From positions 124,001-188,000 of the forward strand of contig KN832571.1 of the NCBI GenBank assembly GCA_000827205.1: 64,000 nucleotides of DNA, given 5' to 3'. The DNA is from Plicaturopsis crispa FD-325 SS-3 (taxonomy: Eukaryota; Basidiomycota; Agaricomycetes; Amylocorticiales; Amylocorticiaceae). The position numbers were made by a program, and so were the translations under genes. The notes below the pieces were generated by a model, which had not been told where the DNA came from, did not search any database, and was given only the letters and a program-made list of their open reading frames with translations. Shown here one piece after another: positions 4,396 through 57,482 of the stretch (the first letter of the stretch is position 1; each line of letters starts with the position of its first letter).

Positions 4396-5512
4396 TTTGC
4401 AGTGCGTTGTTTTTTTTTCGGCTAGATCACACGCGACTGTCTAACCGACTGCGTGCATCCAGTATTCCTTCACCGCCTCTTCAGCGCATATGCTTCGAAC
4501 CATGGAATTCACCTACGTCTACCTATCATCTCACATCACGGACCATCTCGCTTTTTCGGTTTCTTTGCACGATCTACGCGCCCTAACGATACTCATGCGC
4601 TACATGTACCTGCTCTGAGAAATATGCATTTTGCCGTCTACTAATATATATCTTGTATCATCTTCTCTTTTCGACGCCATACTACTTGCGGGTCGAGACT
4701 ATCAACAAGTGGAGTACGAATCTAACAAGGTACTGGACCAGTGACTCTGCCAGTAAGAGATGACTTAGGTATAACCATGACTTGCCCTGGACGTCGACGG
4801 CACTAGAAGGCAAACCGCATTGTATGTAGCTAAATCGCACATCGAGGGTACATATCAGCCATCTACAGCAAAAAGAGAGTAAAGGAATCGCTCACCTTGA
4901 CGTCCGTTCAAGTAGCCCCGATCACAATGTAGGGCTGCACAAGCCATGATAATTCAAGTTTCGCAACTATTATCTCGCCCGCCTTGACATTGCTTCCTTT
5001 CGTATGCTTAGAGCAGCTTGATGCGTGTCGGCCAGAGTATCTCGGGCTGGTCTAGCCAAGTCTATGTAGTACCGGAACATGCGCGGTTTCGAGTGGTGGA
5101 CCGTAAGCCCCAACGGCACCAGCTCCCCGGCTGATTATCATAGGGCACGTCCAGGACACTCGAAGACCATGATGCATTTTGTTTGAAGGGGCTGCGAGCG
5201 CGGGCGGAAATAGAATTTGCGTAGGGCTATTAGGTTTCCTTCTAGACTGGTGATTCAGTCCCAAAACATACGGGGGAATATTGGGCGCTTGCCAAGTAAC
5301 GTCGCCGCAGTCATGTTCAACTTCAATATTCGTCCATTGTGTATGCGCACCCAGTCTAATTAAATGCCAGCGTTCGCAGTCGTGAAATATGAACAACGAT
5401 GACTGATGGAAAAAACAGAGTGAGTACAAGTTCTAACATGACAGACTCGTAGGTCGTTACAAGGTCCAACTTCAAGACACAATATCCTCTCCGAAACCCC
5501 TCACTGCGTGCA
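4396..5512. other. Intergenic, no gene seen
   Basis: The 1.1 kb between the stop of the FunK1 gene and the stop of the oppositely oriented LIM gene. Base composition is more AT-rich than in the flanking genes and only short frames occur. It presumably holds the two 3' ends. No RNA gene or repeat was recognised. Confidence 0.6.
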
Positions 5513-8500
5513 TTAAACCTCGTTGCGCAAAATGATGCTGAAGCAGGACTCGCAGAACGGCTTATCCCCACGCTGAAAGAACGACGGGTCCTCAAACGGC
5601 TTCTCACAACCCTACAACAAAGGAACACGCGTCAGCACATCATTCTTGGAGGACAGACCGAGATGACGAGATCGACTCACAGCACACACAAAGCACGCCC
5701 AGCACCACTTCCCCCCGAGCGCCTCCACCGCACGGTCCCCCTCGCGGATGCTCTTCTGGCACCGCTTGCACTTCGGCATGCGTAGCCGCACGTGGCACGC
5801 CTCGCAGTACGGGTGCCCGCGGTACACCGTGAAGCCCACGTCGTCGTCCGCAAAAGACCCGTCGCCGCTCACCGTCAGGTTCTCTTTCCCGTTGACCTTG
5901 GATGGCGACGATGGCGCGAGGAACGGGTCACCGCACTCCGCGCAGAAGAAGTGCTGCTCGTGGTACGTCCGCTTCCCGAGCGCGGGGTCGTCCAGCGTGA
6001 TGAACCGCTCGTCGATGATCGCCGTCTCGCAGGAGTAGCACCGCGGTGCAAAGTTCTATGCGTGGATGCATGTCAGCACCGGTTCAGTAAGGTGAGAGAT
6101 ATGTGGATCGTGGGTTCGCTCCGTGAAAGAAATGGCAGCCCGGGGAAACGAGCAGTAGCAGATACAAATACGCACCTCATGATAATCCAGATGGCAGTAC
6201 GCACGCCCCTCCCACTCGTAGCTGCTCACGTGCTCGAGCAGCTCCCCGCACGCCGTGCAGCGGAAGCACTCCGGGTGCCACCGCGCACCCATCGCATTCA
6301 CGATACGCCCGATGATCGCGCCGCCACAGCCGCCGCACACTAGGCCCCCGCTGTGGTGCACCGGCGGCAGTGCAGGGAGCGTGCGGCCGGATGGCGTTGC
6401 TTGTGTGCGGCCAGACGGTGCTGCGTGCGAGTGGCCGCGGCCCGACGCCTGCGTGGAGTCGTTGGGGCCCGAGACGTTGATATTTGGTGGGCTAGGAGGG
6501 CCAGATACGTTAATGCTCGGGGGACCAGAAACGCTGATGCTCGGGGGACCAGAGACATTGATACTGGGTGCACTCGAGACATTGATACTCGGCGGCGCAT
6601 GCACACTGACGCTCGGCGGGCCCTGCACGCTGATTTCGGGCACCTTCGCATCACTATCGTGCAGTTCGTCCTGCTGCTGCGGCGCGAACGCGATCGTCTG
6701 GGCCCGTCCGCCCACCGGCGCGGGCGACTCTATTTTCACAGCCGGCGCGGACGACGTGCCTCGGTGCGGGCCTGTCCGCGGGGGCAGCGGCGGTGCCGGC
6801 CGCGTCGGCGAGCCCATCTGCGCGGAGGGCTTGTGGCCGTACATCTTGGTAGGCGAGTCGCGCCCATAGGACTTCGTCGGCGAGTCGCGCCCATAGGATT
6901 TCGTCGGCGAGTCCCGGCCTCCGCCAAAGACGGACTTCGTAGGCGAGCCGGGCGTCGGGCTCCACTTGCGGTTCGCGGTGCTGCGCGGGTGCAGCGGCGG
7001 CGGCTCGCGCTTCGGGGACCTCGGCGCCTCGTCGAGGGGCCGCCCGTACGCGTCGTGCTGCGAGAACTGGGAGTACCGGTCGGGCGAGAGCTGCCGCGCG
7101 GGCACCTGGTTGCCGTAGCGGTCGGGGGAGATCTGGCGCGGCGGGAGGCGCGGGGACGCCTGGGCAGGCGGTTGGGGGAAGGTGGAGGAGGTGGGCGGCG
7201 AGAAAGGGCGGGTGTGGATATGCGGGAGCGCGCGCGACTCGCTTTGTTTCCACGTATCCTGCCTCTCCTCCCTTGGCTGGCTAAACGCACTCCCGCTTGG
7301 CGACGCTCGGCCGCGCTCCTCGAACGGCCGCGCACGCTCCTCGAACGGCCGCGCACGCTCATCAAACGGCCGCGCACGCTCCTCGAACGGCCGCGCACGC
7401 TCACCAAACGCACTCCGCGCGGCAGCATCAAACACGCTCTTCGACGTCTCCGAGAACGCAGACACAGACGACGCCGCAGGCGACGGCGTGCGGCGCAGCG
7501 ACACGGGCGGCTCGTCGTCCAAATCCGGCGCGTGGCGATGGTGGCTGTATCCATTCCCGCTCTGGCTGTAGCCATTCCCGCCCTGGCTGGCCATGGGAGG
7601 CCGTGGCAGCTCGCCCTCACGCGACTGCGAGCGCTGTGCAAGGATATGCGGCGGCCCGCGCGGGCCCGTGCCGACGTTCTTCGCAGGCGCACCGGGCGGC
7701 TTCGGCAGAGGCGGGTTCGCACTAAAACCCGAGGCCGATGGTGCAGCATACTCCACCGGAGACGCGAACTGGCCGTTGGGGAAATGCGACGTAAACGGCG
7801 ACGCCTTTGCTTCAGAGGTAGACGTCGCTTCAGAGGTAGAAGTCGCTTCAGAGGTAGAGGCAGAAGAGAACGAGGACACCGGACGCGCGCGCGGGAGATC
7901 CCGTATCCCATACTGCGGGCTCGGCGGCTCGAGCTCGCTGTCCGTATCGGTATCGGACACGCTGGGTGTCTCCTCCGTATACTGCCCCTCGTCGGACTCC
8001 TCGGGCTCCGAATCGGAGGCACCGTACTGCGAGCGAGTACGCTGGTGTCCGCTGGCGCTGAATGCGGAAGACGAGCCTTGCTGGAAAGACGTCCCTGGGC
8101 GGGAGAATACGGGGATGGGGATGTCGGGCGTCACGGGATGCCGGATACGCGTCGAGAATCCGCTGGACGTCGTGTTCTGCGCTTGTTCTGGCGCGCGTTG
8201 AGTCGCCTGCCCAGTGCGTGCAGCCGCAGACGCGCCTTTCCCTGACTTCTGGGGGCTCGGTGCGGATCCACCTTTTGCAGTACGCGCTTTATTTTTGTCT
8301 TTGTCCGTGCGGTGTGCAGCGGGCGGGCGGGCGAATGCTGCTTGGGCTGCGCTCGCTGCGGGCGGGCGTGCATTCGATGTAGGTGCGGGTTGCTGTGCGC
8401 GAGACTGGGTAGACGCAGGGAGCGGGGCGCGTCCAGGGACAGACTGTGGAGGGGCTACCCAACCTCGTCAACAAAAGTAATACAACATGTCAAGTTTATA

Positions 8501-26867: not shown

Positions 26868-29423
26868 ATGCACTTGGTAGATCGTAGCTCAAATCGTTAT
26901 CGTGACTCCAGAATCACAACACCCTCTCAAGACATAACCAACAGACCTCCAGCACCCGCCGTCGATACCGCTGGCCCAAACACGATGCCTTTTGACAGAT
27001 ACCTCCAAGATGTTCCAGAATCGGAGAACACGCCAGGACCGAGCTCATTCAGCGGTGCAGCGTACAGCGGGTACCCCGCCGTCGCCGCACCCAATGGGTT
27101 ACAATGGCGCATACCACAGTTCCTCGCTGGCGGTCCACCGACTCTCGCAGCAGGAGGAGGTGTAGAGGCTTTATTTCCAGACAGATCTGCATGGTTCAAT
27201 AACAACGGCTTCAGCGCTCAGCCGTTAGTACAGTTATCTCTGCCACTCGATGGATGCTAACTTCAGAGACCCAGCGTGTTTCCGCTGGCCGACTTCCTCT
27301 CAGACGAGTCGCGGGCATATGCCCCGCCTCAGACATTCCCCTTGCCCTCCCCAATAGTACAACAGCCGCCCCCTCATCCCGCCGCAATGGCCGACGCCAC
27401 ACACCAGCCGTCACTGGACAGTCTGCCTGTGTACTCAACATCCGGATTCGACCTCCTCTCACTTTTGTCTCAGATAGCAACACGCCCGTTCCCATCCATC
27501 GTCCTCGGTCCCGTGGATATGTCATGCGCATTCACCGTGGTCGATGTGCGCCGGCACGATGCGCCCATTGTATACGCCTCGCCTTCTTTCTTAGCTCTCA
27601 CCGGTTACACCGAAGCCGAGGTCTTGGGTCGCAACTGCAGGTTCCTCCAAGCCCCGCCCGGACAGACGAACATCCCGCGTACGGAGGCCAGCGTCTACCT
27701 CAAGAAGTGCCTCTCCAAAGATATGGAGTGCCAGACGCATATGACGAACTACAAAAAGGACGGGACGCCGTTCATGAACCTACTCTCAGTAATACCCGTG
27801 CGCAGCCCAAACTCCGAGGTGATCGAACACCATGTCGGCTTCCAGGTCGACCTCCACGCGCAGCCGGACTCTATTCTACAGAAGATGAACGACGGATCGC
27901 TTGTAGTCAACTACTCGAGAGACCGACACAACTCCCGCTCGTCCGATGGTACCCATAGCGCCCCTATGTCCGCAGACCTACGCCAATTGCTCGCCAACCC
28001 TGCGTTCACCAACTCCATACCACTTGCCCCTGAGACTATACATCCGCCGCCACCGCAAGCGTCGACGTCCTCTGCATTGTTTTCGCAGCTCATCCTTTCG
28101 TCAGCCTCTGACTTTGTGCACGTGCTGTCTTTGAAGGGCGTATTCCTGTACGCCGCACCCGCTGTGCGCGACGTTCTGGGCTACGACCCCGCAGACCTGA
28201 TCGGTCGCGCGATCGGTGATTTCTGCCACCCCGCAGACGTCGTGCCGCTCATGCGCGAGCTCAAGGACTCCTCCACAACAACGACCTCCCCATTCCTATC
28301 ATCATCTTTCTCCGCTGAGCACACAACGAGCAGGATCGCGCTCCCCGCGCCCAAGAACGTGGACATGCTCTTCCGCATGCGCGTGCCGGGGGACGAGACG
28401 CGCTTCGTATGGGTGGAGTGTCGCGGCCGGCTGCACGTCGAGAACGGTAAGGGCCGCAAGGCCGTCGTGCTCAGCGGGCGCGTGCGCAGCGTCCCCACTA
28501 TATCCTGGGGCGACGTCGCCAGCGCAGGTACGCGGACCGACGGGGACTGCTGGGGAATGCTCAGCGCGCGGCAGGGCACGGTGCTTTCTGCGGGCCCCGG
28601 CGTGAGGGACGTGCTCGGATGGAGCGCGGAGAAGATGGTGGGCACAAACATGGCGGACCTTGTGTGCGATGATGCGCAGAGGCGCCAGTTCACGTGCGCA
28701 TTGAGCGCGCAGGCGGGAGAGGTACAGTGTATCATGGACACGAAGAGCGGGACTAGCATTGATGTCCGCGTACGGTTCTTCGCATCCAGAGAGGCGGGAG
28801 AAGAGGTGACACCACCCGTCGTCTATCATCTGTGCCGCGCCGTCTCTGCTTCATCAACTCCCGCCACGCCCAAGCCCTCATTGTTGCGGAATCCCGATGG
28901 AGACGTCCTGCAGGAGCTTGACACCGCTCGTGGGACGAGCTGGCAATACGAAATGCAGCAGGTCCGATTCACGAACGAGCGCTTGAAACAGCAACTGGCC
29001 GTGCGCGAGAACAGGGCTCGGGGCGTCGAGCGGCTCAAGCGTACCACTCAGCCTCCCGAAGACCCTGTGACCGGCACAAGCGCGAACACAACGCCGACAA
29101 CGCAACAGCCCGCATACGCACCGCTCTCAGTCCAAGGACTCGGGTACCCGGACCTGGGCCAGACCTATGGCGACATGCAGGGCTTCGGTGGCCAGGCACC
29201 TGTGCAGTATGCGGAGGATAGCAGTGAATATGGCTTTGGTGCGGAAATCAGGAGGGCCTCGTATGGCGACGAGGTGCATGCGTACGATGGGCAGAGCACG
29301 CACGTGCAGGAGTCGGCGCCCCCTCGGAGACATAGCGTCTGGGGCGTGGGTGTCGGTGCGCCCAGGACGGGGGCGAAGAGGGGATGGGATGAGATGGCTA
29401 TGACGGGCGGCGCCATGACATGA
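26868..29423 (+). CDS. wc-1: White-collar-1-type blue-light receptor (LOV/PAS)
   Basis: Two exons (26868-27227 and 27267-29423) joined across a 39-nt intron with a GCTAACTTCAG branch/acceptor give 838 residues. The LOV domain at about residues 200-320 holds the flavin-adduct motif GRNCRFLQAPPGQ, preceded by PIVYASPSFLALTGYTEAE and followed by HVGFQVDLHAQ. Two more PAS domains follow: SASDFVHVLSLKGVFLYAAP with LGYDPADLIG, then a third with LSAGPGVRDVLGWSAEKMVG. The C-terminal 180 residues are disordered with a short basic segment. Neurospora WC-1 ends with a GATA-type zinc finger; none is present here, as is typical of basidiomycete WC-1 proteins, where the partner WC-2 supplies DNA binding. 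Expected role: with WC-2, light-activated transcription controlling fruiting and photo-repair genes. Confidence 0.95.
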
Positions 29424-42573: not shown

Positions 42574-42977
42574 ATAACTAAGGTTATTTAGTGATGCGCC
42601 GTCTATGAGTTTTTATCGTGAATGATAGGACACAAGCCAGCGAAGAACATAATAACCAGGGACGTGCGCACAACGATATCGTTCTGTTCAGCTTCTGTCG
42701 AGCTCTTCCAGCGTTGAAGCACCGGTAGAAACGACGGTGACCGTGAAAGTTCAAGGAAGGAACGCGAATGAAATAGCCCCTGTCGACGATTATACGACGT
42801 GCTCGCTTTTGACCATCAGCAAAAAAGCCGGCGCCGTAGACCTGAATATATGCGAATATAAGACGGACAATAGGTACCAGATGTACCAGGCTGGTGAGCA
42901 ATAATATAAGACTTTAAAGTCGTCACTTGTATTTCACAATTCGCTACAAGATCGGGCCAGCCTGGTTGACTTGACTA

Positions 42978-43020
42978 GACTGGTACGACATATATGGTCT
43001 GGTAAGCTCATGTAAGGCTG
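42978..43020 (+). repeat. Left subterminal inverted repeat of the Plavaka element
   Basis: Read inward, the left arm has GACTGGTACG, a short AT spacer, then GGTCTGGTAAG, TCATGTAAG and GCTG. The right arm read inward has GGCTGGTACC, GTCTGGTAAG, GTCTTGTAAG and CCTG. Order and spacing agree apart from the spacer, which supports both as the two ends of one element. Confidence 0.6.
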
Positions 43021-43287
43021 CCTAAGGCAGGCTGTCGGATAGCAGGCCAGCTCGCAGTAGCCAGGCAGTTGCTCGGATGTACTCAAGGGCAGATAATGAA
43101 AGCAATAGCAGTTTATTATAGACACGGTGCAGTACACGACGACAGGAGGAATCATAGCAACGAAAGGGCCGCGGCACGTACAGAAGAGACCGCGACATTG
43201 GACAACAGAGCAAGCGGCGGCCGGTGACTTCACGGGAGAGGCCTGCCATTTCAGAAGGAGAGCACGAGAGCTGGGGGCGAAGCGACA

Positions 43288-43392
43288 GCGAGGAGCCAGG
43301 AACGAGCAGCGAGGAGCCAGGAACGAGCAGCGAGGAGCCAGGAACGAGCAGCCAGGAGCCAGGAGCGAGCAGCCAGGAGCCAGGAGCGAGCA
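43288..43392. repeat. 21-bp minisatellite, five copies
   Basis: Three identical copies of a 21-nt unit starting GCGAGGAGCC are followed by two copies of a variant starting GCCAGGAGCC. All five are in strict 21-nt register. The array lies in the left arm of the Plavaka element, between the inverted repeat and the end of the DUF6698 gene. Confidence 0.9.
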
Positions 43393-43702
43393 GCGATATC
43401 AGTAGCGAGAGAGGTATCAAAGGGAAGGCTTGAAGACGTGAGCGGTCGTGAGCGGCGGAAACCAGTGCCTACGGTGAGATCAATCAGTCGTATGCCACGA
43501 AAAAGATGAACGTTAACTTACATCGTGAGTGCCGGCAAGTGGAAACGGCTGTGGATGTGCGAGTGAGCCGCGTAAAAGCAAATGGAGGTAGACAGCTCGC
43601 ACAGAAATTAAACGGTCAGTAGCGCGAAGACCTAATACCGAAACATCAGTTCCCGTAAACGACAAGGGCATGGGACACGCACCCCCATCATGTGCTATTC
43701 AG

Positions 43703-45348
43703 CTACGCCGACGACTCGGAGGTACTGGGGACTTCGGGTGACGGCGACGACGATGCTGCGGCACTGTCGTTTAGAAGGGCCGCTGCGCGCCGAGCCCGTT
43801 TTGCGGCGCGCTGGTTCATGGTGCGGTTGGCGTCCGACGATTCGTCATTGGCCGCTGGCGTCTCGGCGTCGTCTATCATGTCGGTACCGAATACTTGTCT
43901 AAGATAGTCATAAGCATGTGTATCCAATGCGAGAGTGGGCACTCACTTGTTCCACCAGTCTAGGGTGTCTATACACCATTCGTCGGTAGGGTCGTCCTCG
44001 AAGAGCCGCACGATCACATTGAAGAAAGTTTCCATCCTAAATCTACCCGCATCCGAGGAGAAGTTTTCGAGGGAGCTCATGAAGAACCACGCCTGCCAGC
44101 ACGTTGATTTGATATGCCGAGAACATAATGATAAGACTTACCTGGATGGCCGCATATGCTATCGAGCGACCGGACACCCTCGTTAGGCCGTGAATTCTCC
44201 CGTTACCTGCCTTCGTCGCTTTGGATCCTCCGATGTTTCCGGCCGCCTTGTTCAAGGCCGAAGAGGGGCCAATGTAGATATGCTCCCAGACCTGTAAGAT
44301 GTGTTTAGTGGCAATAAATTGGAGTGGGTGGATACATACGCGAAGGACTAGATACCCGCGCAGCAGACCGTTCTCAAGGTCATTCTCGTCGTACACACAA
44401 TCTTCTTGGTACAGGAACGTCGGCCAGTCGGTGGCGGTTGCAGCCACACGCCCATCGAGAAGCTCATTCTGGAAGCTGATGGAGATAGTCATGTTAGTGA
44501 TGTGCGGCTATGAGTAGGGACAAATCCCTACCCAGGCTCAGTATCAAAGCGATCTAGGTACTTGCGCGGGCACAAGAGCCTAGCAGTGGCACGGTGCGAA
44601 AACCCGCGGCCGGACTTACTCCCTTCCACGATGAACGGTGGGTCGTGGACGTCGGTACGAGGGTTCACATGCATGTAGCAAAGCCCCGCATGCTTGAGAC
44701 TTGACGAGTCATCCGATTTAGCACCACTTAGGCCATCCGCGATCTGTACGAAGATGAGTGGAAGTGTTTAACTAATTATATAGCAAGAGACGTACCGCGC
44801 TAGTGATTGTGTCGAGCACGTCGGGAGCGTCTGCGAGCTCATCAAGGACTTCCTTGAAGCCTTTAACGCGCGAGAGGATGAAATGGTATGCCGCAACGTT
44901 CTCCTTCAAGGCGCTCGCACTTCTGCAAAGACCCAGATATCAATGACAATAAGCACGGCATTCACATAAATTACTTACATATCCTTCAGCCGGGGATGAT
45001 CTTTTGCAGCCAAGGGCTCTTCCTGTGCCTCGTTGGCGTCGTATATCATACCAATCTTGAAAGCGATGACCACATTGATGAAGGGACTAAAGCCCCGAGG
45101 AATCCAACGTCCTTCGTTGTTGTACGGCTTCAGCGCGAGTTTCCTGGAAGAAAATTGAAAGAAAAATAAGTTGATCCGGGCTGAAATGCTCACTTGGTCA
45201 GGCGCCGGTTTCCTGTCTCCGAGAGGCTGTCGACTAATTCATCAATACCGCGTTTACGCGTTGGCGGCACAGCGGTGGCAGGGTCCGAGTCTAGATCGGC
45301 GGCGGCGGCGGCGGAGTCCGAAGCAGGGGACGAGGGAGTGTTAGGCAT
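43703..45348 (-). CDS. DUF6698 family protein, cargo of the Plavaka element
   Basis: Reads from ATG 45348 to a stop at 43705-43703 through about eight exons. After a disordered Ala/Asp/Ser-rich leader come the family blocks: GRWIPRGFSPFINVVIAF, GSKSGRGFSHRATARLLCP, DWPTFLYQEDCVYDEND, RGYLVLRV, IYIGPSSALN, HGLTRVSGRSIAYAAIQ, RLFEDDPTDEWCIDTLDWWNKQVFG. The C-terminal tail is Ala/Ser-rich with a basic stretch (RAAKRARRA). DUF6698 is an agaricomycete family with many paralogues and no known function. Here it lies inside the inverted repeats of a Plavaka transposon and is transcribed away from the transposase, so it may serve the element. That role is inference. No enzyme motif was seen. Confidence 0.8.
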
Positions 45349-45597
45349 AATGGGAGAAGGGGAGAAGATGGGGGTAAGAAAGAGGAATAGAATATCGTCG
45401 AGACTGAGGTGGTGGTACTTATATACGGACGGGTCGATATATTTCGAGGCCAATGACACGGTCACGTGCAATCAACAAGCCGCTTTGGGGCTTGAGTGGA
45501 ACGCGCCGCCGCGGCACTTACGATTTTTCTCGTTCTTTGCGCTCAACGCTCATGTTCGATGTCTCGTTTTCTGGTTCTCCTCTGCTGTATTTTATTC
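45349..45597. promoter_or_regulatory. Shared divergent promoter inside the Plavaka element
   Basis: About 250 bases separate the DUF6698 start codon (-) from the transposase start codon (+). An AT-rich TTATATACG lies near 45419. Both genes of the element would be driven from here. GC content and the absence of any frame shared with the flanks fit a promoter. Confidence 0.45.
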
Positions 45598-48500
45598 ATG
45601 GTCTATTCGTGCTCTACACCAGGTTGCAAGTTTAAACCGTCGAAAACTGCGAAAGGCCTCGCTGTGCACGAACGAAAATGTGCAAGGGCCGAAACAGCGC
45701 AGCTTCTGCTACAGCGGAGAACAAATCGCGTAGCACAGGCTAGCACAGCTGCAAGCACCCGTGGATTCATCGGTACACCTGCGGCTTCAGTGGAACCACC
45801 CGAGGCCATACCGAGTGATGATGGTCTAACCGGACCATACGATGAGGTATGTCCAAAAATTGACTACAATACGCTGTTTTTCTCATCCGTAAACTAGCCG
45901 ATGGCTCTGGACGAAGTCCCAGAGGTAGCTCCGGACGAGTCAATGTCTAGCGGGCGTCCGAAGCGCGTACGAAAATTCCCTCGAGCATACAAGGACTTTC
46001 TCCCATCATCCACAACACCTCTTCCACATATCCCCGACCACATGACACAACGGGAACTCCGTGAGCAGGCGCAGCGTGACCAGCCTGCACCAGAGCCGCC
46101 CTCTCCGTCCCCGGAACCTCCGCGCACACCGCCAATCGCCGTCGCGGTAGTGACCGAGCCAAACGAATTTGGTGTGTACCGCTCGTACCCGACCTGGCCA
46201 AGCGCAGACCCAGAGGAAAACATCGCGCTCGGGGACCTCTGTGAAGCACCGGGTCTCGCATCTGCAAACGCGGCAGCTGCGGACAAGATCGCGTCGGGTG
46301 TCACACTAGAGCCCGAATCGTCGTGGGGACCATTCCTCAGTGCGACCGTCTTCAAGCTCATGTCGTGGTTCTACTCCGGGTCGAATACTAAGTCTGTCAC
46401 AGAGCTTGACCGTCTCGTCACCGAAGTGCTTCTACAGGACGACTTTGACAAGGAGGCCTTGAAGGGATTCAAAGCCGCACGCGAGACGGATCGCCTCGAC
46501 AACTACGAGGAAGCCCGCGAGAGTGTCTCCTTCCTGACAGCGAAGGGATGGGAGCCGTCTACCGTCAAGATACGACTCCCATGCGAGAAGGCCGAGCATC
46601 TGTCCGAGGATCACGCACCTGAGTTCTCGATCCCCGGCGTCTTCACGCGCAACATCGTCGAAGTCATCACTGCCGCTTTCCAGGAGCCTGCCGCACTCGA
46701 CTTTCACATGACCCCATTCACACAGTATTTCAGGCCATCCGAGGATGCAGAACCCGTACGCATGCATGGCGAGATGTACACATCTGATGCCATGCTCGAG
46801 GCGCATGCGGAGATCCAAGCGCTACCTGCCGAACCCGGTCCTCCTTTGGAATGTGTTGTTGCCGCGGTAATGCTGTGGTCCGATTCGACTCATCTTGCAA
46901 ATTTCGGCACTTCTGCGCTGTGGCCGGCCTACCTTTTCCTAGGAAACCAGTCCAAATACACCCGCGCGAAGCCCACTGCGTTCGCGGCCCATCATTTGGC
47001 ATATTTCCCATCGGTAAGTTCCCATCTGCCCTCATGCGTCTCGTCAATGGTCTTATCACCCTTCATTTAGCTACCGGATTCTATCTACGATGTGTATGAG
47101 GCAATATTCGGCAAGGGACCATCATCAGCCGTATTAACGCACTGTAAACGGGAGCTGTTTCACGCGGTGTGGGAGCTTCTTCTCAACCCCGCGTTTATGC
47201 ATGCGTATGAACACGGTATAGTTATCCTTTGCGCTGACGGTGTGACACGACGCGTGTACCCTCGTTTTTTTACCTACTCGGCTGATTACCCTGAGAAGTG
47301 AGTCGTTTGGATAGATTCTGAGAAGGGGACCGAAACTAAAGATCCCTCAGAGTCCTTATTGCGACAATCAAAAACCTGGGTCAATGTCCGTGCCCACGCT
47401 GTACAGTGAAGAAGGCCGACATTCCGAAGATGGGCACGAAACTCGATGCACGCCGTCGTGAGAACGTTCGCGTCGACACCGAGATCAGGCAGGGGAACGT
47501 AAACAGGACGCGGGAATGGATTTATGAGAAGGGCCGTCCCATTGGTGGTGTAGCCGTCGAGCGCGTTTTGGGCAAAGAGTCGTTTGTTCCAACACGGGTA
47601 AGTTTGAGTCCCGTCCTGACGTGTAAGTGTGCTGATGATCGTCTTGTCTCCAGAATGCCTTCTCTCAGAAGTTATTCCCGTTTGGCTTCGACGTCTTTCA
47701 GATGCTCGTCGTCGACCTCCTACACGAGTTCGAGCTGGGTGTCTGGAAAGCCGTATTCACTCATTTAATTCGCATTCTCTATGTCATTGGATCAGACGCT
47801 GTCCATGCGTTGGACAAACGGTGCGTTAGCTGCAAGTCCACTAGCTCTTTACTCATCAAAATCTACAGATTTCGCCAGGTTCCGACTTTCGGTAGAGACA
47901 CCATACGGCGCTTTACAAACAACGCTTCCGCGATGAAAAAGCTAGCGGGACGTGACTTCGAGGACCTCCTACAGGTAAGTATCATATACTTATCAACCGA
48001 TCCCACTTATTGACGCGAGGATAAGTGTGCCATGCCCGTATTTGAAGGTCTTCTGCCCGCACCCCATGACGCAATCGTCCAGGACCTTTTGTTCTCCCTC
48101 GCGACTTGGCATGCTTACGCCAAACTACGGCTACACACCGACACGACCCTCGATCACTTTGACGACGCTACTACATCCCTAGGGACGATTCTTCGCAAGT
48201 TTGTCCGTGAAACTTGTGAAGCTTTCAACACCAAAGAATTGCCACAAGAGGAGGCTGCCCGAGGGCGACGTGCTGCAGCAAAGGCCGCCAAGAAGACGGC
48301 TGCAGGCGACGCGCCGTCTGCTCCACCCCCTCCGACCGGACTCAAGCGCAAGATTCTCAACCTTTGCACATTCAAGCTGCATTCCCTCGGCGACTACGTC
48401 AAGATGATACGGCGCTTCGGGACAACCGACTCGTATAATACACAAATTGTGAGTGCATCTTATCGACTATTACCTACTCTGTGAATGACGAATCACGACA

Positions 48501-49913
48501 GGGCGAACTAGAGCACCGGCGCGTGAAGAAGTTCTTCGCGCGCACGAACAAGAATAAATTCCAGCGTCAAATCGCTCGTCACGAACGTCGCGAGCGATTG
48601 CTACGCGGTATTAATCTTCGAAACAAGAAAGCCGCTGACGCAGCGCAAGCCACCAAAGTACGACCTCACGTGAACCCTGCCATTGCCTTCACGGCTGCCG
48701 ATCCCTTACCGTACACCCCCCCTGCCGTACACCACCACATATCCGACTCTGTAAAGCACCGCCTCGACATACAGACCTGGATAGGTGACAACCGTGACGA
48801 TCCGGGAATGCAGGTAGGCCATCACTTTTGCTGTATATGAATGATTTGCTCATTCACCCGTAGCATTTTCTTCCCCGGCTGCAAGACCATCTTCTTGGCC
48901 GACTTCTCGACCAAGAATACGATGGCGACGAGACTGAATTTACCGACGAGCAGCGCCGGACTGTCACATTGGTCAACAACCGGCTTTATTCGCACAAAGT
49001 TCTTCGCATCAACTACACAACTTACGACTGCCGCCGCTCACAAGACTCACTCAACCCCCGTACACATGCCGACATAATGGTTCTTTCACACGAAGAGGGC
49101 GCCGACGCTCACCCTTACTGGTACGGCCGTATTATCGGGATCTACCACATGCAAGTCCGGCATCTTGGACCAGAATCCCGCAACGTGGAAACTCAGCAGA
49201 TGGATGTTCTATACGTCCGCTGGTTTGGACGTGACCTCTCTTACCGTGCGGGATGGAAGGCCAAGCGCCTGCATCGCCTGGGCTTCTTGGATAGCAGTGA
49301 TCCGGGCGCCTTTGGCTTCGTCAATCCAGACCTGGTCGTCCGCGGAGCCCATCTCATTCCGGCATTTCACCATGGCCGAACGGCCGAGTTCTTACCCCCA
49401 TCTATCGTCCGACAGCCTAGCGAGAAGCATGAAGACTGGCTATATCATTATGTTTCCATGTAAGTCTCGAAACTCGACCTTGATGATGTTAACTGACCTA
49501 TCTTGAATAGCTGGGTCGACCGCGACATGTTCATGCGCTATCGCGGCGGCGGCGTTGGTCATCGCGTGATGCGGGACTGGGATAGAGCGCTGGGCGAGGA
49601 GAACCACGTCCTCGACGAGCCCGATGAGGACAACGACATCGTGATGGCGGACCCGGACGGCGACGAGGATGAGGCCTCCAACGGCAACTTTTCCGATCCA
49701 GGGCCTTCCGAGCCGGAGGAGAACGACGATGATCGCGGGACCGAGGAGGAGGATGTGGATGAGGACGACCTAGAGGAGGACGACGAGGAGGAGATGGGCT
49801 GGCCCTCTTGGGAGGAAGAGGTGGAGGCCGATGTCGACGGGCTACTGGGTGCCGAGGACGGCGAAGAACCGTACTTCGACATGATAGATGCGGAAGGGTA
49901 TGGCGCATTGTAA
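45598..49913 (+). CDS. Plavaka transposase
   Basis: Starts MVYSCSTPGCKFKPS, an N-terminal C2H2-like finger common in this family, and ends at TAA 49913 after a long Glu/Asp-rich tail. Core blocks are LTAKGWEPSTVKIRLPCEK, HMTPFTQYFRPSEDAEPVR, MHGEMYTSDAMLEAH, MLWSDSTHLANFGTSALWP, FLGNQSKYTRAKPTAFAAHH, AYEHGIVILCADGVTRRVYP, FFTYSADYPEK, QCPCPRC, VVDLLHEFELGVWKAVFTHL, GRDFEDLLQC and GTTDSYNTQIGELEHRRVKK. These include the conserved Asp and DLLHEFELG regions of the RNase-H-like core. Exon joins around 45846, 47013, 47297, 47598, 47977, 48448, 48811 and 49460 all keep the frame by eye. The enzyme would excise and insert the element. It looks intact. Confidence 0.93.
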
Positions 49914-50371
49914 GAGCTTTTTTTCGCTTATTCTCTTTTCAGCAGGGGTCCGGAGGTCTCTTATCGGTCTCGCATGAACTCCACGATAATATGTAGCCGT
50001 TGTATGTTTTTATGTTTGGGCTATTGACTGGACTACTTACATTTGTACTGCCGGAGACGGTCTTAACTTCATATATTATTCTGGCTGCTTATTTCGGGCT
50101 CAGAACCTCAGATGGGATAGGGTAGGTATCCTTGCGTATTTTCTAGACTGACGGTAAGGCCTGAAGGTGCTCCTTGCCTGCGTAGAGGGGAGACGGCGTG
50201 TGTCCCGCGGCGGTCCTGACATACAATATATTGTGAAAACAAGTCCGCTATGCTCCTTACAAGGCAGGCATCAGACTGGGGCGTCAATATATGCATTCAC
50301 CAGCCGGCTACCAGTAATATAAGGGCCCGTCATTCTGGTGGGAGTATACAAGGGAACTACCTGGCGGACGA

Positions 50372-50409
50372 CAGGCTTACAAGACCTTACCAGACGGTAC
50401 CAGCCTGGG
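50372..50409 (-). repeat. Right subterminal inverted repeat of the Plavaka element
   Basis: Forward sequence CAGGCTTACAAGACC, TTACCAGACGGTACC and AGCCTGGG is the inverted counterpart of the left arm at 42978-43020. Further ACCTTACC and GGCTTACC motifs continue to about 50450, as expected for subterminal transposase-binding sites in CACTA-like elements. Confidence 0.6.
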
Positions 50410-50525
50410 CGCAGATTACAGGGGCTACCCGACCTTACCTGGGCTTACCGGTGTCAGGACTTTTTGCTGATGACGACGACGGCAACAACGCACGGATCGG
50501 TGCCAACTCTCCGACGTCCTCGCTC

Positions 50526-54019: not shown

Positions 54020-57000
54020 TCAAAGGTCCGCACCCACAGCATCAACGACATACAGCACCTGCTGCGGTCTGACGAACAACCCCCTGGACTCCGAGGTCGA
54101 CACATCCGACACCGCAGGGGAAGCACTCCGCATCCGCTTCGCGCGCTCGACGCTCAGCTGGTCACCCTCTCGCTTCAGCCCCTTGCTGCTTGTGTAGTCC
54201 ACCCGCCGCCGTGGTGCATCGCCGTAGTCGCCCCACTCCGAGCCCGCGCCGCCGATCTCAAAGTAGCGCACGCCGCCCCACGTTCCGTCGTTCCAGTCGC
54301 GGCCCTCGAGCTTCTCTCCCGGCCAGCTGTCGCCTACAGGCACCTCAACGCCTACCCACGGTCCAAGTTCGCCCTCCACTTCTCCTATGTAGCGCGCGTA
54401 CGCGCGGAATCGCTTTCGTTTGGAAGAGATGATGCAGGGGATGCCTATTTCCAAGGTCGCCCCCCGCGGCGTAAATGCCAATTGCTGCTTGAGCGTTGAG
54501 GCGGCAGCGACGGCGGCAGTCGATGCCGCCGTTGATTTGGTGATAGTGTCGGAGGAGCCCTTCCGTCTTAATGTCTTCACGCTTAGCGTACTCTCGGTCG
54601 ACGGTGTACTGATATGCGTGTCCCTTTCTTTTCCTTTGATGCTGCTCGCTGGGGTATGGCCATTTATCCTCGTTGGTATTGGTGTCTTCTTTTCCGTGGC
54701 AGCTGTCTTCCGGATAGGCGTTGCCTTCTTTGCAGGGTTTGCATTGGAATTGGTAGACGCAGTGGAGCGCACAGACATTGTTGACGCAGGCCGTTTTGTA
54801 GCCGACGAAGATGGAGTCAATTTGGGCGCATCCAACGTGCCCGCTGGCCGCTTTGTCGATTTTGCTGCGGTGGATATGGTAGAGGTAGTAGAGTTGGCCG
54901 CAGAGGGGCGACGAGGTCGCGTGATCTTCGTAGTCGCTGGGCTACCAGTCGTCGTCTTCGCGTTGCTCACAGAGGTGGACGCAGCAGAAACGCGTTGAGA
55001 TCGTGACGCCGCAGACGACGCCCGCATCTCCGAGTTTGCGGTCTTGAACGTCGTTGAACCGTCACTATTGGTGGATTGAACTGAGGCTGGACGGGAGTCA
55101 GCTGACGGCACGCGCAGTGTCGACGGTCCTGCCGTTGACCCATTCCGAACGGTAGTATGCGATCGGATCGATGATGCGGTCGATTTTCTACTGGAGGCCA
55201 CCGTGCGGGAGGTCACGCTTCGTGCAGCACCTGTCGGGCTCATGACCCGTGGTTTCGGTGTCACCTGTCCCTCGACGAGGGTAGAGCGTGCGGAAGGCGA
55301 CGGCGTCAATTTGGAATCGGGGCGCGGGCCTGAGGGGACACCACCGGTGCGCGCTGCGGGGCTCATTGAGTTCACCCTTGAGGAGGCGGTGGATTGTGTG
55401 CTGCGTGCAACGGAGCGGATAGATGCCGCACCAGACGCTGATCTCGTAGGGATTTGGCGGTTGACGACAGATTTGTGTAGAGAATGCATGGATGTGGTAT
55501 CTGTGGCATCGTCTGCTTTGACCATACTGGGTCGTTGGCCTGCCTTTGTGGTAGACCTGTTTAGGGAGGACTGCGATGGGTTCAGAAGATCTTCTACGGG
55601 AACTTCAATTTCTAGTAAGAGATAATGCGTCAGTCTCGTTCGGAGAAGGAATGCCCAAGTACTACCTCCACTGATCTCCTTGAGTGCCCACCCATCAAGG
55701 GCATCGAAGCCGTTTTCCTGTCGTATGCCCACCCAACGTTTCCGCATCCAACGTAGGACATCCACCCGGGCTTCTTCCACTTGAATTCGGATATGTGATG
55801 TCGCAGACAACATAGTGCTATCCGGTTCTGTCAAATGGGGGCGCAGGAGTATAGACGATACCAGGGTCTGTGCAAAAATGTGCAATCAACAAATGGTCCC
55901 CGCAAATGCAAGAATCAACGTACCTGATATACCGTGCCCGCATTCTTCTCGTTCAAGCCCCTGCGCACCGAATCCATGATTAACTCGACCTGCTCCCCGT
56001 CCTCAAACCGTACGCCATCGGACTCCATCATCTCGAGCCAATCCGGCTGCTCGAAACACTCCTCCGCGCGTGTGCACAGCACCTCATCTATTGTCTTCCG
56101 TGCACCCTGCAGCATCTCTCTCACTACATCCGCCCACGGGTCAATGACCGCGTTCATCTTCTCCAGCCCGTGGTGAGCGGCGAACAGCAGTGCGAAAACA
56201 TTCATCGGCGTGGTGCGCTTGGCGAGGCCCTTGAGGAGACTCTCGCGGAGGCGCTGCGGTAGCCCCGCGAATTCCGATGTGCACCAGCCCTCGCCAAAGA
56301 GCCCGACGAGCGCACGCCGTGCCCCGCGCTCCAGCGCGGCGTTCTTGACGTCGTCAGCGAGGGCGAATTCGAGCGTGCGTGGAGCGCGCCGCGCGCACTG
56401 ACGGCAGCGGCAGCCACCTGTTCCCCATTTGCCCCCCGTGATACGTTCGTACTCGGCGAACTCGAGGAAGGCATGGAAGAGACCGTGTAGCATTTCCTGC
56501 ACGATACGCGCCTGAATCTCGTCATAGAGTGAGTCGAGCGCGAGGTAGGTAGCGGACCGCATGATGTGGAAGGCGGTATCGAGGTCATATGTGCGGTGGG
56601 AGAATATGAGGGTGCCGGTATAAATAAAGCCCAGAGTAAAATGGAGAGAGGCGGGAGTGAATGGTGGAGAGGGGAGGGTAATTGTGAGCGGCTCATCCGA
56701 CTTGGACTGTTGCGGCACGCCCCACGACAAAAGCTGGGAGTGGAAGTAGGGGGAACGGGACACAAGAATGAAACGATGGGAAGAAAATATAGCCGTAGTC
56801 GATTCGTGATTTGTAGAAGAAAATGACCCTGTTAGAGCTATACGGACGTCGGAGTACAGGCGGGAGCGCCACATGAAGACCAAGTCCTTCCGGAGCTTGT
56901 CAATGCGGTTCTCCTCCGCGTCGCCCTCTGCGCGGCTCTCGGACGTGTCGAAGAGAAACTCGAACGCCTCGCCGAAGCCCTTACCAGTATACAGGTATTC

Positions 57001-57482
57001 GAGCTCATTGGAGAATAGGATCGGGTTGATGGAAGTGGGCAGGCGCAGGAGCGTTCCTGGGTTGTTCGAGGGTGTCGGCGAGGCGACGCGGAAAGGCGAC
57101 GGTGAGCGCGAAATATCTAGACCAACAGAGAGGGAAAGAGTGGACTGTGCTGGGAAAGGGGAATTCGAGTATGGCAAAGGCGATGCGACGGGAGCTGGGC
57201 GAAAGGAAAAGTATCGTGCTTGGAAACTAGGCGGGGCGCGAGCGTACACGATGGCTTGATATTACAATGAGCACTGGCCGCAACTCGACGTAGACTACAC
57301 TCACCTTTGTGTCCCCACACCTCTTCAGATTTCGCCTTTTCATCTTCTGCCTGGAGTTCCCATACAACGTCGGGGAAACGGTCTTTAGCGTTGTTGAACA
57401 GCGATTGGAGATTGTCCTGCCATGCAACGGTCGAATTTTTCGTAGCTTCGATGAGACCTGGAGGTGATACTGCGGGGGCCAT
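54020..57482 (-). CDS. BTB/POZ protein with C-terminal CAP-Gly domain
   Basis: Four exons (57482-57305, 57254-55924, 55867-55666, 55611-54020) give 1100 residues. The N-terminal 60 residues resemble a small helical region (NLQSLFNNAKDRFPDVVWEL). A BTB-like domain at about residues 180-300 includes LYSDVRIALTGSF, FSSHRFILVSRSPYFHSQLL, FTLGFIYTGTLIFS and AFHIMRSATYLALDSLYDEI. A helical BACK-like region follows (LRESLLKGLAKRTTPMNVFA). A long Ser/Thr-rich disordered stretch with many basic SP/TP sites precedes a CAP-Gly domain at about residues 965-1090: ARYIGEVEGELGPWVGVEVP, WNDGTWGGVRYFE and GLFVRPQQV. CAP-Gly domains bind the EEY/F ends of tubulin and EB proteins. It is plausibly a microtubule plus-end adaptor, perhaps linked to Cul3 through the BTB domain, but that is inference. 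Confidence 0.85.

Follow-up and report, generated by a model that had tools for sequence, protein, structure and literature searches.

A clade of Plavaka transposons in Plicaturopsis crispa that pairs its transposase with a DUF6698 gene

The element in the window and its two genes

The window analyzed in this study, a stretch of 64,000 nucleotides of the Plicaturopsis crispa genome (C18:124001-188000), harbors a Plavaka transposon of 7,659 bp at positions 42814-50472, which carries a DUF6698 gene on the minus strand in addition to its transposase gene on the plus strand. An earlier note on this DNA had placed both genes inside a Plavaka element and described them as diverging from a spacer of approximately 250 bp. 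Both statements were borne out, since the two genes are intact, diverge from a spacer of 249 bp and are enclosed by perfect 12-bp terminal inverted repeats with an AC target duplication. The spacer is probably a shared promoter region. The element comprises the following features, listed with their positions in the window and the method of detection:

42812-42813, left target-site duplication AC (terminal-pair test)
42814-42825, plus strand, left terminal inverted repeat CATCAGCAAAAA, the true left end (end test, derivative comparison)
42814-43213, left subterminal region with CTGGTA-like words and the internal repeat at 42997-43020 (word count, repeat search)
43286-43396, tandem array of 21-bp units in non-coding DNA on the left (repeat search)
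43703-45348, minus strand, DUF6698 gene, 8 exons, 428 amino acids, intact (manual splicing, Pfam); exons 45348-45194, 45143-44979, 44922-44796, 44743-44532, 44475-44340, 44291-44142, 44092-43947 and 43898-43703
45349-45597, spacer separating both start codons, 249 bp (gene models)
45598-49914, plus strand, Plavaka transposase gene, 10 exons, 1,281 amino acids, intact (manual splicing, Pfam); exons 45598-45846, 45898-47013, 47071-47297, 47351-47597, 47654-47820, 47869-47974, 48026-48448, 48502-48813, 48864-49459 and 49511-49914
50073-50472, right subterminal region with CTTACC/CTGGTA-like words (repeat search, word count)
50461-50472, minus strand, right terminal inverted repeat TTTTTGCTGATG, the true right end (end test, copy comparison)
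50473-50474, right target-site duplication AC (terminal-pair test)

After splicing by hand, all introns of both genes were of the GT..AG type and the transposase, for which the start codon was chosen by hand, contained no internal stop codon. The DUF6698 protein matched the Pfam family PF20414 (E 6.7e-66, 222.3 bits versus a cut-off of 23.7), while the transposase matched PF18759 (E 1.8e-34, 119.9 bits versus a cut-off of 26.3, profile positions 45-318 of 325). DUF6698 and Plavaka were the only Pfam matches, with TET/JBP not among them, in a scan that covered the two proteins of the window element. PF20414 was also matched, at E 10 or better, by all six DUF6698 sequences of alignment A1, in which core residues P79, G91, C102, P103, G151, P169, V199, A205, Y206, L254, W256 and W257 (numbering of the first row) were invariant. 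Among the three transposases of alignment A2 the motif CPRC was invariant. Transposase queries recovered no relatives in viral contigs or prokaryote genomes, as expected for a fungal element.

The ends of the element were sought by testing CATCA/TGATG pairs, following the PlavakaB termini (CATCA..TGATG with a target duplication of 2 or 3 bp) given by Kojima 2025 (PMC12730594). A single outstanding pair, 42814 with 50472, was found in the window. Assuming equal base frequencies, a perfect 12-bp pair is expected by chance approximately 0.013 times among the 210 CATCA/TGATG pairs of the stretch, and approximately 0.0008 times if a matching 2-bp flank is added. Two related sequences were compared with the element, using queries extended by 500 bp of flank. 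A partial copy (C24:18341-20950) corresponds to element positions 5051-7659 with 90% identity over 2.6 kb, and its similarity ends at 50472, beyond which agreement drops to 9 of 40 flank bases. A derivative of 2,757 bp (C9:92124-94880) has the ends of the window family and a GA duplication, is 89% identical to the element in the first 262 bp and 78% identical in the last 127 bp, and its similarity breaks off at the left boundary 42813/42814 and, on the other side, at 50472. The ends found in the window therefore delimit a mobile unit. Neither the DUF6698 nor the transposase gene was matched in the derivative at E 0.01 or better, and it apparently moved in trans. A further CATCAG-type end is present 14 bp upstream of the start of the partial copy.

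The earlier note had drawn the outer limits at 42870-50455, which fall approximately 56 and 17 bp short of the ends. The inverted repeats it had regarded as flanking the genes are real (42997-43020 with 50372-50395, 24 nt, 88%), but were rejected as element ends because they are internal: the 12-bp ends with the duplication lie outside of them, and it is there that the similarity of copy and derivative stops.

Judged by its CATCA..TGATG ends and 2-bp target duplication, the element is of the PlavakaB kind, with which it also shares the Plavaka transposase (PMC12730594). The same termini are present in five further elements holding both genes, and the 2-bp target duplications of the six differ. 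Plavaka, introduced by Iyer et al. 2014, is also named in PMC9674265 and PMC8290104. Neither DUF6698 nor PF20414 was mentioned in the open-access literature, to which the search was confined, and PMC12730594 contains no mention of a DUF6698-like second gene in the passages cited; an earlier description of the gene pair may exist.

Within the 800 bp of subterminal DNA of the window element, counted on both strands, CTGGTA-like words occurred in 7 copies and AATATA was equally frequent, while a sevenfold word was found in none of 200 shuffles of this DNA. The element at C3 exhibited a weak excess of a different subterminal word (2 of 200 shuffles). No subterminal word was common to all elements in the 6-mer count, and beyond the first 9-17 bp the element ends look family-specific.

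Pairing of DUF6698 and transposase across the genome

The search covered one genome (33.2 Mb, 49 contigs), in which Pfam searches yielded 84 exon-level Plavaka matches, grouped by eye into 37 loci, as well as 25 DUF6698 matches at 8 loci; both locus counts derive from the best-scoring candidates and are lower bounds. Two additional DUF6698 proteins used as queries led to no further loci in the genome. The clade of the window transposase, defined by extent and identity of the match to this protein rather than by a tree of all 37 loci, comprises seven loci: C18 (the window), C20, C1, C5, C16, C24 and C3. All seven are paired with DUF6698, compared to none of the other 30 Plavaka loci (Fisher p 9.7e-8, with loci that are not independent), the nearest of which lies 41.6 kb from any DUF6698 locus. 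The partial copy at C24 (18.3-20.9 kb), which has neither its 5' half nor DUF6698, was left out of the seven; if it is counted, the pairing is 7 of 8. The absence of DUF6698 from other Plavaka copies, named in the earlier note as a refuting outcome, was thus observed for Plavaka overall and not for the clade, and DUF6698 as a general Plavaka gene was rejected.

Viewed from the second gene, seven of the eight DUF6698 loci are paired with a clade transposase and lie within 20 kb of it, for which the chance would be approximately 2e-14 if the loci were independent, which those at C5 and C16, being copies, are not. At six of the seven clade loci a single pair of CATCAG ends, flanked by a duplication of 2 bp, encloses both genes (C18 AC, C20 GA, C5 TC, C16 CA, C1 GT, C3 TG). 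At C24 the right end of the tandem element was not found, and this locus was scored as a gene pair with one clear end. The element at C1 is 24.1 kb long, with perfect ends of 17 bp and approximately 18.6 kb separating its two gene matches, while the transposase of the 16.9-kb element at C3 is split into three separated parts; both elements are read as containing later insertions. The elements at C5 and C16 belong to one family (96.7% and 96.0% identity in two blocks) and occupy different sites, and therefore DUF6698 has moved with the transposase. The spread of DUF6698 by transposition, proposed earlier for the family at large, accordingly holds in this genome, with six of the seven paired loci inside demonstrated ends.

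The eighth DUF6698 locus (C7:1288531-1289035) has no transposase match nearby; with 64-76% identity to its counterpart in the C20 element, this copy may be a remnant. Five low-scoring Plavaka loci (C2:3340682, C5:44152, C28:87091, C2:441176 and C37:27901) fell outside both the window clade and the high-scoring group, and possibly represent a third lineage without DUF6698.

The remaining copies were modelled with a purpose-written splice-aware aligner; the N-termini of these models are uncertain, and DUF6698 was compared by its cores alone. In these models the transposases at C1 (2 stops) and C3 (2 stops, three parts) are broken, while those at C16 and C24 need 15 introns each, compared to 9 in the window and C20, and the extra introns may hide disruptions. 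Both genes are demonstrated intact in the window copy alone.

Gene order, divergence and selection

The recurrence of the gene pair, which the earlier note had raised as a condition, was confirmed for the clade, while the divergent order was rejected as a rule: it was found at three of the seven loci (C18, C20 and C1), whereas at the remaining four (C5, C16, C24 and C3) DUF6698 follows the transposase on the same strand. Gene order follows the tree. Matching branching, for which the earlier note had proposed a test, was observed in this genome, as both proteins gave the identical unrooted topology (C18,(C20,C1),(((C16,C5),C24),C3)), with a support of 100 for the transposase nodes and of 48 and 52 for the deep DUF6698 nodes. 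Pairwise identities of the two proteins, with C5 left out, were correlated with r 0.96, a value that 4 of 720 label permutations equalled or exceeded, and with a Spearman coefficient of 0.49 (17 of 720 permutations); without C24 as well, r was 0.82 (4 of 120). The sample behind these comparisons consists of seven clade loci in six families, which are mutually non-independent. Most simply read, DUF6698 was acquired once, before the clade diversified, and the gene order changed once.

Between C16 and C5, the 200 codons of the DUF6698 core differ at 17 nucleotides, 14 of them in third positions, with 2 amino-acid changes (dN 0.0043, dS 0.121), and the 624 codons of the transposase part differ at 37, 31 of them in third positions, with 4 amino-acid changes (dN 0.0028, dS 0.079). 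For both genes dN/dS is approximately 0.036, and DUF6698 is under purifying selection as strong as that on the transposase. Assuming 75% non-synonymous sites, 17 neutral differences in DUF6698 would include no more than two amino-acid changes with a probability of approximately 7e-8. Over larger distances DUF6698 diverges faster than the transposase, with dN between C16 and C24 of 0.40 compared to 0.25, and identities between families of 26-36% compared to 38-54% (the C16/C5/C24 group set aside).

The elements at C5 and C16 differ by 216 substitutions, among them 151 transitions, 74 of which lie within a CpG context in one or both copies. The CpG-context transitions are possibly due to methylation-linked decay.

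What DUF6698 may do for the element

DUF6698 and the transposase have travelled together from a time before this clade split into its families. Because DUF6698 is present at every clade locus, its divergence parallels that of the transposase and it is equally constrained, we consider it highly probable that DUF6698 is a core gene of the element in this Plavaka clade rather than late cargo or a chance passenger, and the term cargo used in the earlier note no longer fits. The DUF6698 protein would act on behalf of the element. It might do so by recognizing subterminal DNA specific to its element family, and by helping the transposase complex to assemble or regulating it, a role comparable to that of TnpA, the companion of TnpD, in En/Spm. 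We put this TnpA-like partner role forward tentatively, as a proposal with a little less in its favor than against it. The fast divergence of DUF6698 and the family-specific element ends favor it, as both are expected of a co-diverging pair, and the movement of the C9 derivative, which has the ends of the window family and neither gene, implies that the ends are acted upon in trans. Plavaka transposases resemble those of En/Spm (PMC12730594), in which TnpA binds subterminal repeats and is required beside TnpD (PMC8195511), and by analogy an end-binding or regulatory partner appears the most likely role. For the explanation as a whole, a PlavakaB two-gene element with DUF6698 as its second gene and likely transposition partner, the balance is even.

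Several observations weigh against this explanation. The agreement of the two trees at their deep nodes is weak if taken alone. Among the six members of A1, Pfam detected DUF6698 without any DNA-binding or other domain, no PDB match was obtained up to E 10, and the domain is not basic, with a pI of 5.7 in the window copy and of 5.6 to 8.1 in the cores of six others. By 6-mer count, no subterminal word array above chance was present at C20, C16, C5 or C1. In addition, the transposase has an N-terminal zinc-finger-like cysteine/histidine motif, read by eye from its sequence, and could with this motif bind the ends alone.

The main rival, which we regard as rather unlikely, is an anti-silencing factor that frees element copies from methylation or heterochromatin, in the manner of the VANC proteins of VANDAL elements and, presumably, of transposon-borne TET/JBP enzymes in fungi. 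Counter-silencing genes do occur in the group, since TET/JBP enzymes are encoded in some PlavakaB families (PMC12730594), and VANC binds rapidly diverging non-coding repeats of its own elements (PMC10398659), which would suit a fast-diverging second protein; the universal presence of DUF6698 in the clade and its purifying selection agree with such a function as well. On the other hand, Pfam revealed no enzymatic or known chromatin domain in DUF6698, and TET is reported on Plavaka in only two species in the passages cited from PMC12730594, compared to DUF6698 at seven of seven loci, so that a basic need appears likelier than an optional weapon. It is improbable that DUF6698 represses the element or regulates its copy number by way of the shared promoter or the transposase. 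The divergent genes with their 249-bp spacer in the window and the low copy number (at least seven clade loci in 33.2 Mb) would fit such a role, but four of the seven loci are in tandem order without a shared promoter, and selection on a single element would, by argument only, favor losing a self-repressor, yet no loss was found at the seven loci.

That DUF6698 has no role in transposition at all, and is a captured host gene, or else a gene of advantage to the host or one that works as a selfish killer, seems very unlikely. Its function is not established and its copy at C7 has no adjoining transposase match, observations that would suit a passenger; this copy may be a remnant, given how closely it resembles the one at C20. 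DUF6698 is moreover retained at every clade locus despite identities of 26-36% between most families, its tree equals that of the transposase, and both genes were equally constrained after C5 and C16 had split. That a host gene lies beside a transposase merely by chance, or seems to do so through faulty annotation, is refuted in this genome by the 12-bp ends and target duplication enclosing both genes, as well as by the chance figure for proximity given above, with its proviso of independence.

Among known systems, En/Spm (CACTA), from the same broad group of superfamilies, likewise moves by cut and paste and has two genes, one for a transposase and one for a highly diverged second protein. 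In contrast to the window element and its relatives, in which the genes are separate and either divergent or in tandem, TnpA and TnpD originate from overlapping spliced transcripts (PMC8195511). DUF6698 exhibited no match to a TnpA Pfam domain. VANDAL of Arabidopsis is a Mutator-type system. It shares an element-borne second protein, VANC, which targets rapidly diverging non-coding repeats (PMC10398659); anti-silencing has been demonstrated for VANC and is a hypothesis for DUF6698. The Nuwa group of PIF/Harbinger also combines a transposase with a single partner protein, which in that case is a DNA-binding Myb/SANT protein (PMC12730594), unlike DUF6698, for which Pfam found no Myb/SANT match.

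Elsewhere in the window we noted a fungal protein kinase domain (PF17667; 2678-3625, plus strand), a long frame with several PAS domains (27261-29423, plus strand), which we take to be reminiscent of the blue-light receptor white collar-1, and on the minus strand (54020-57261) neighboring frames with a CAP-Gly domain (54020-55885) and a BTB domain (55915-57261).

Two-gene elements are already known in the same broad group, to which the window element adds a cut-and-paste transposon with an uncharacterized partner. Whether the DUF6698 family as a whole is the second gene of PlavakaB, a clade-defining class of transposition partners that has been present since the clade arose and would explain the expansion of the family in mushrooms, is a proposal for which we see equal chances either way. 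For the family, the findings provide a biological context, an explanation of why selection maintains it and a few candidate roles that can be tested. Annotation would change in that DUF6698 genes taken as host genes would become transposon genes, and one Plavaka clade with a second gene beside other Plavaka of the same genome without it makes the need for a partner comparable within a single superfamily.
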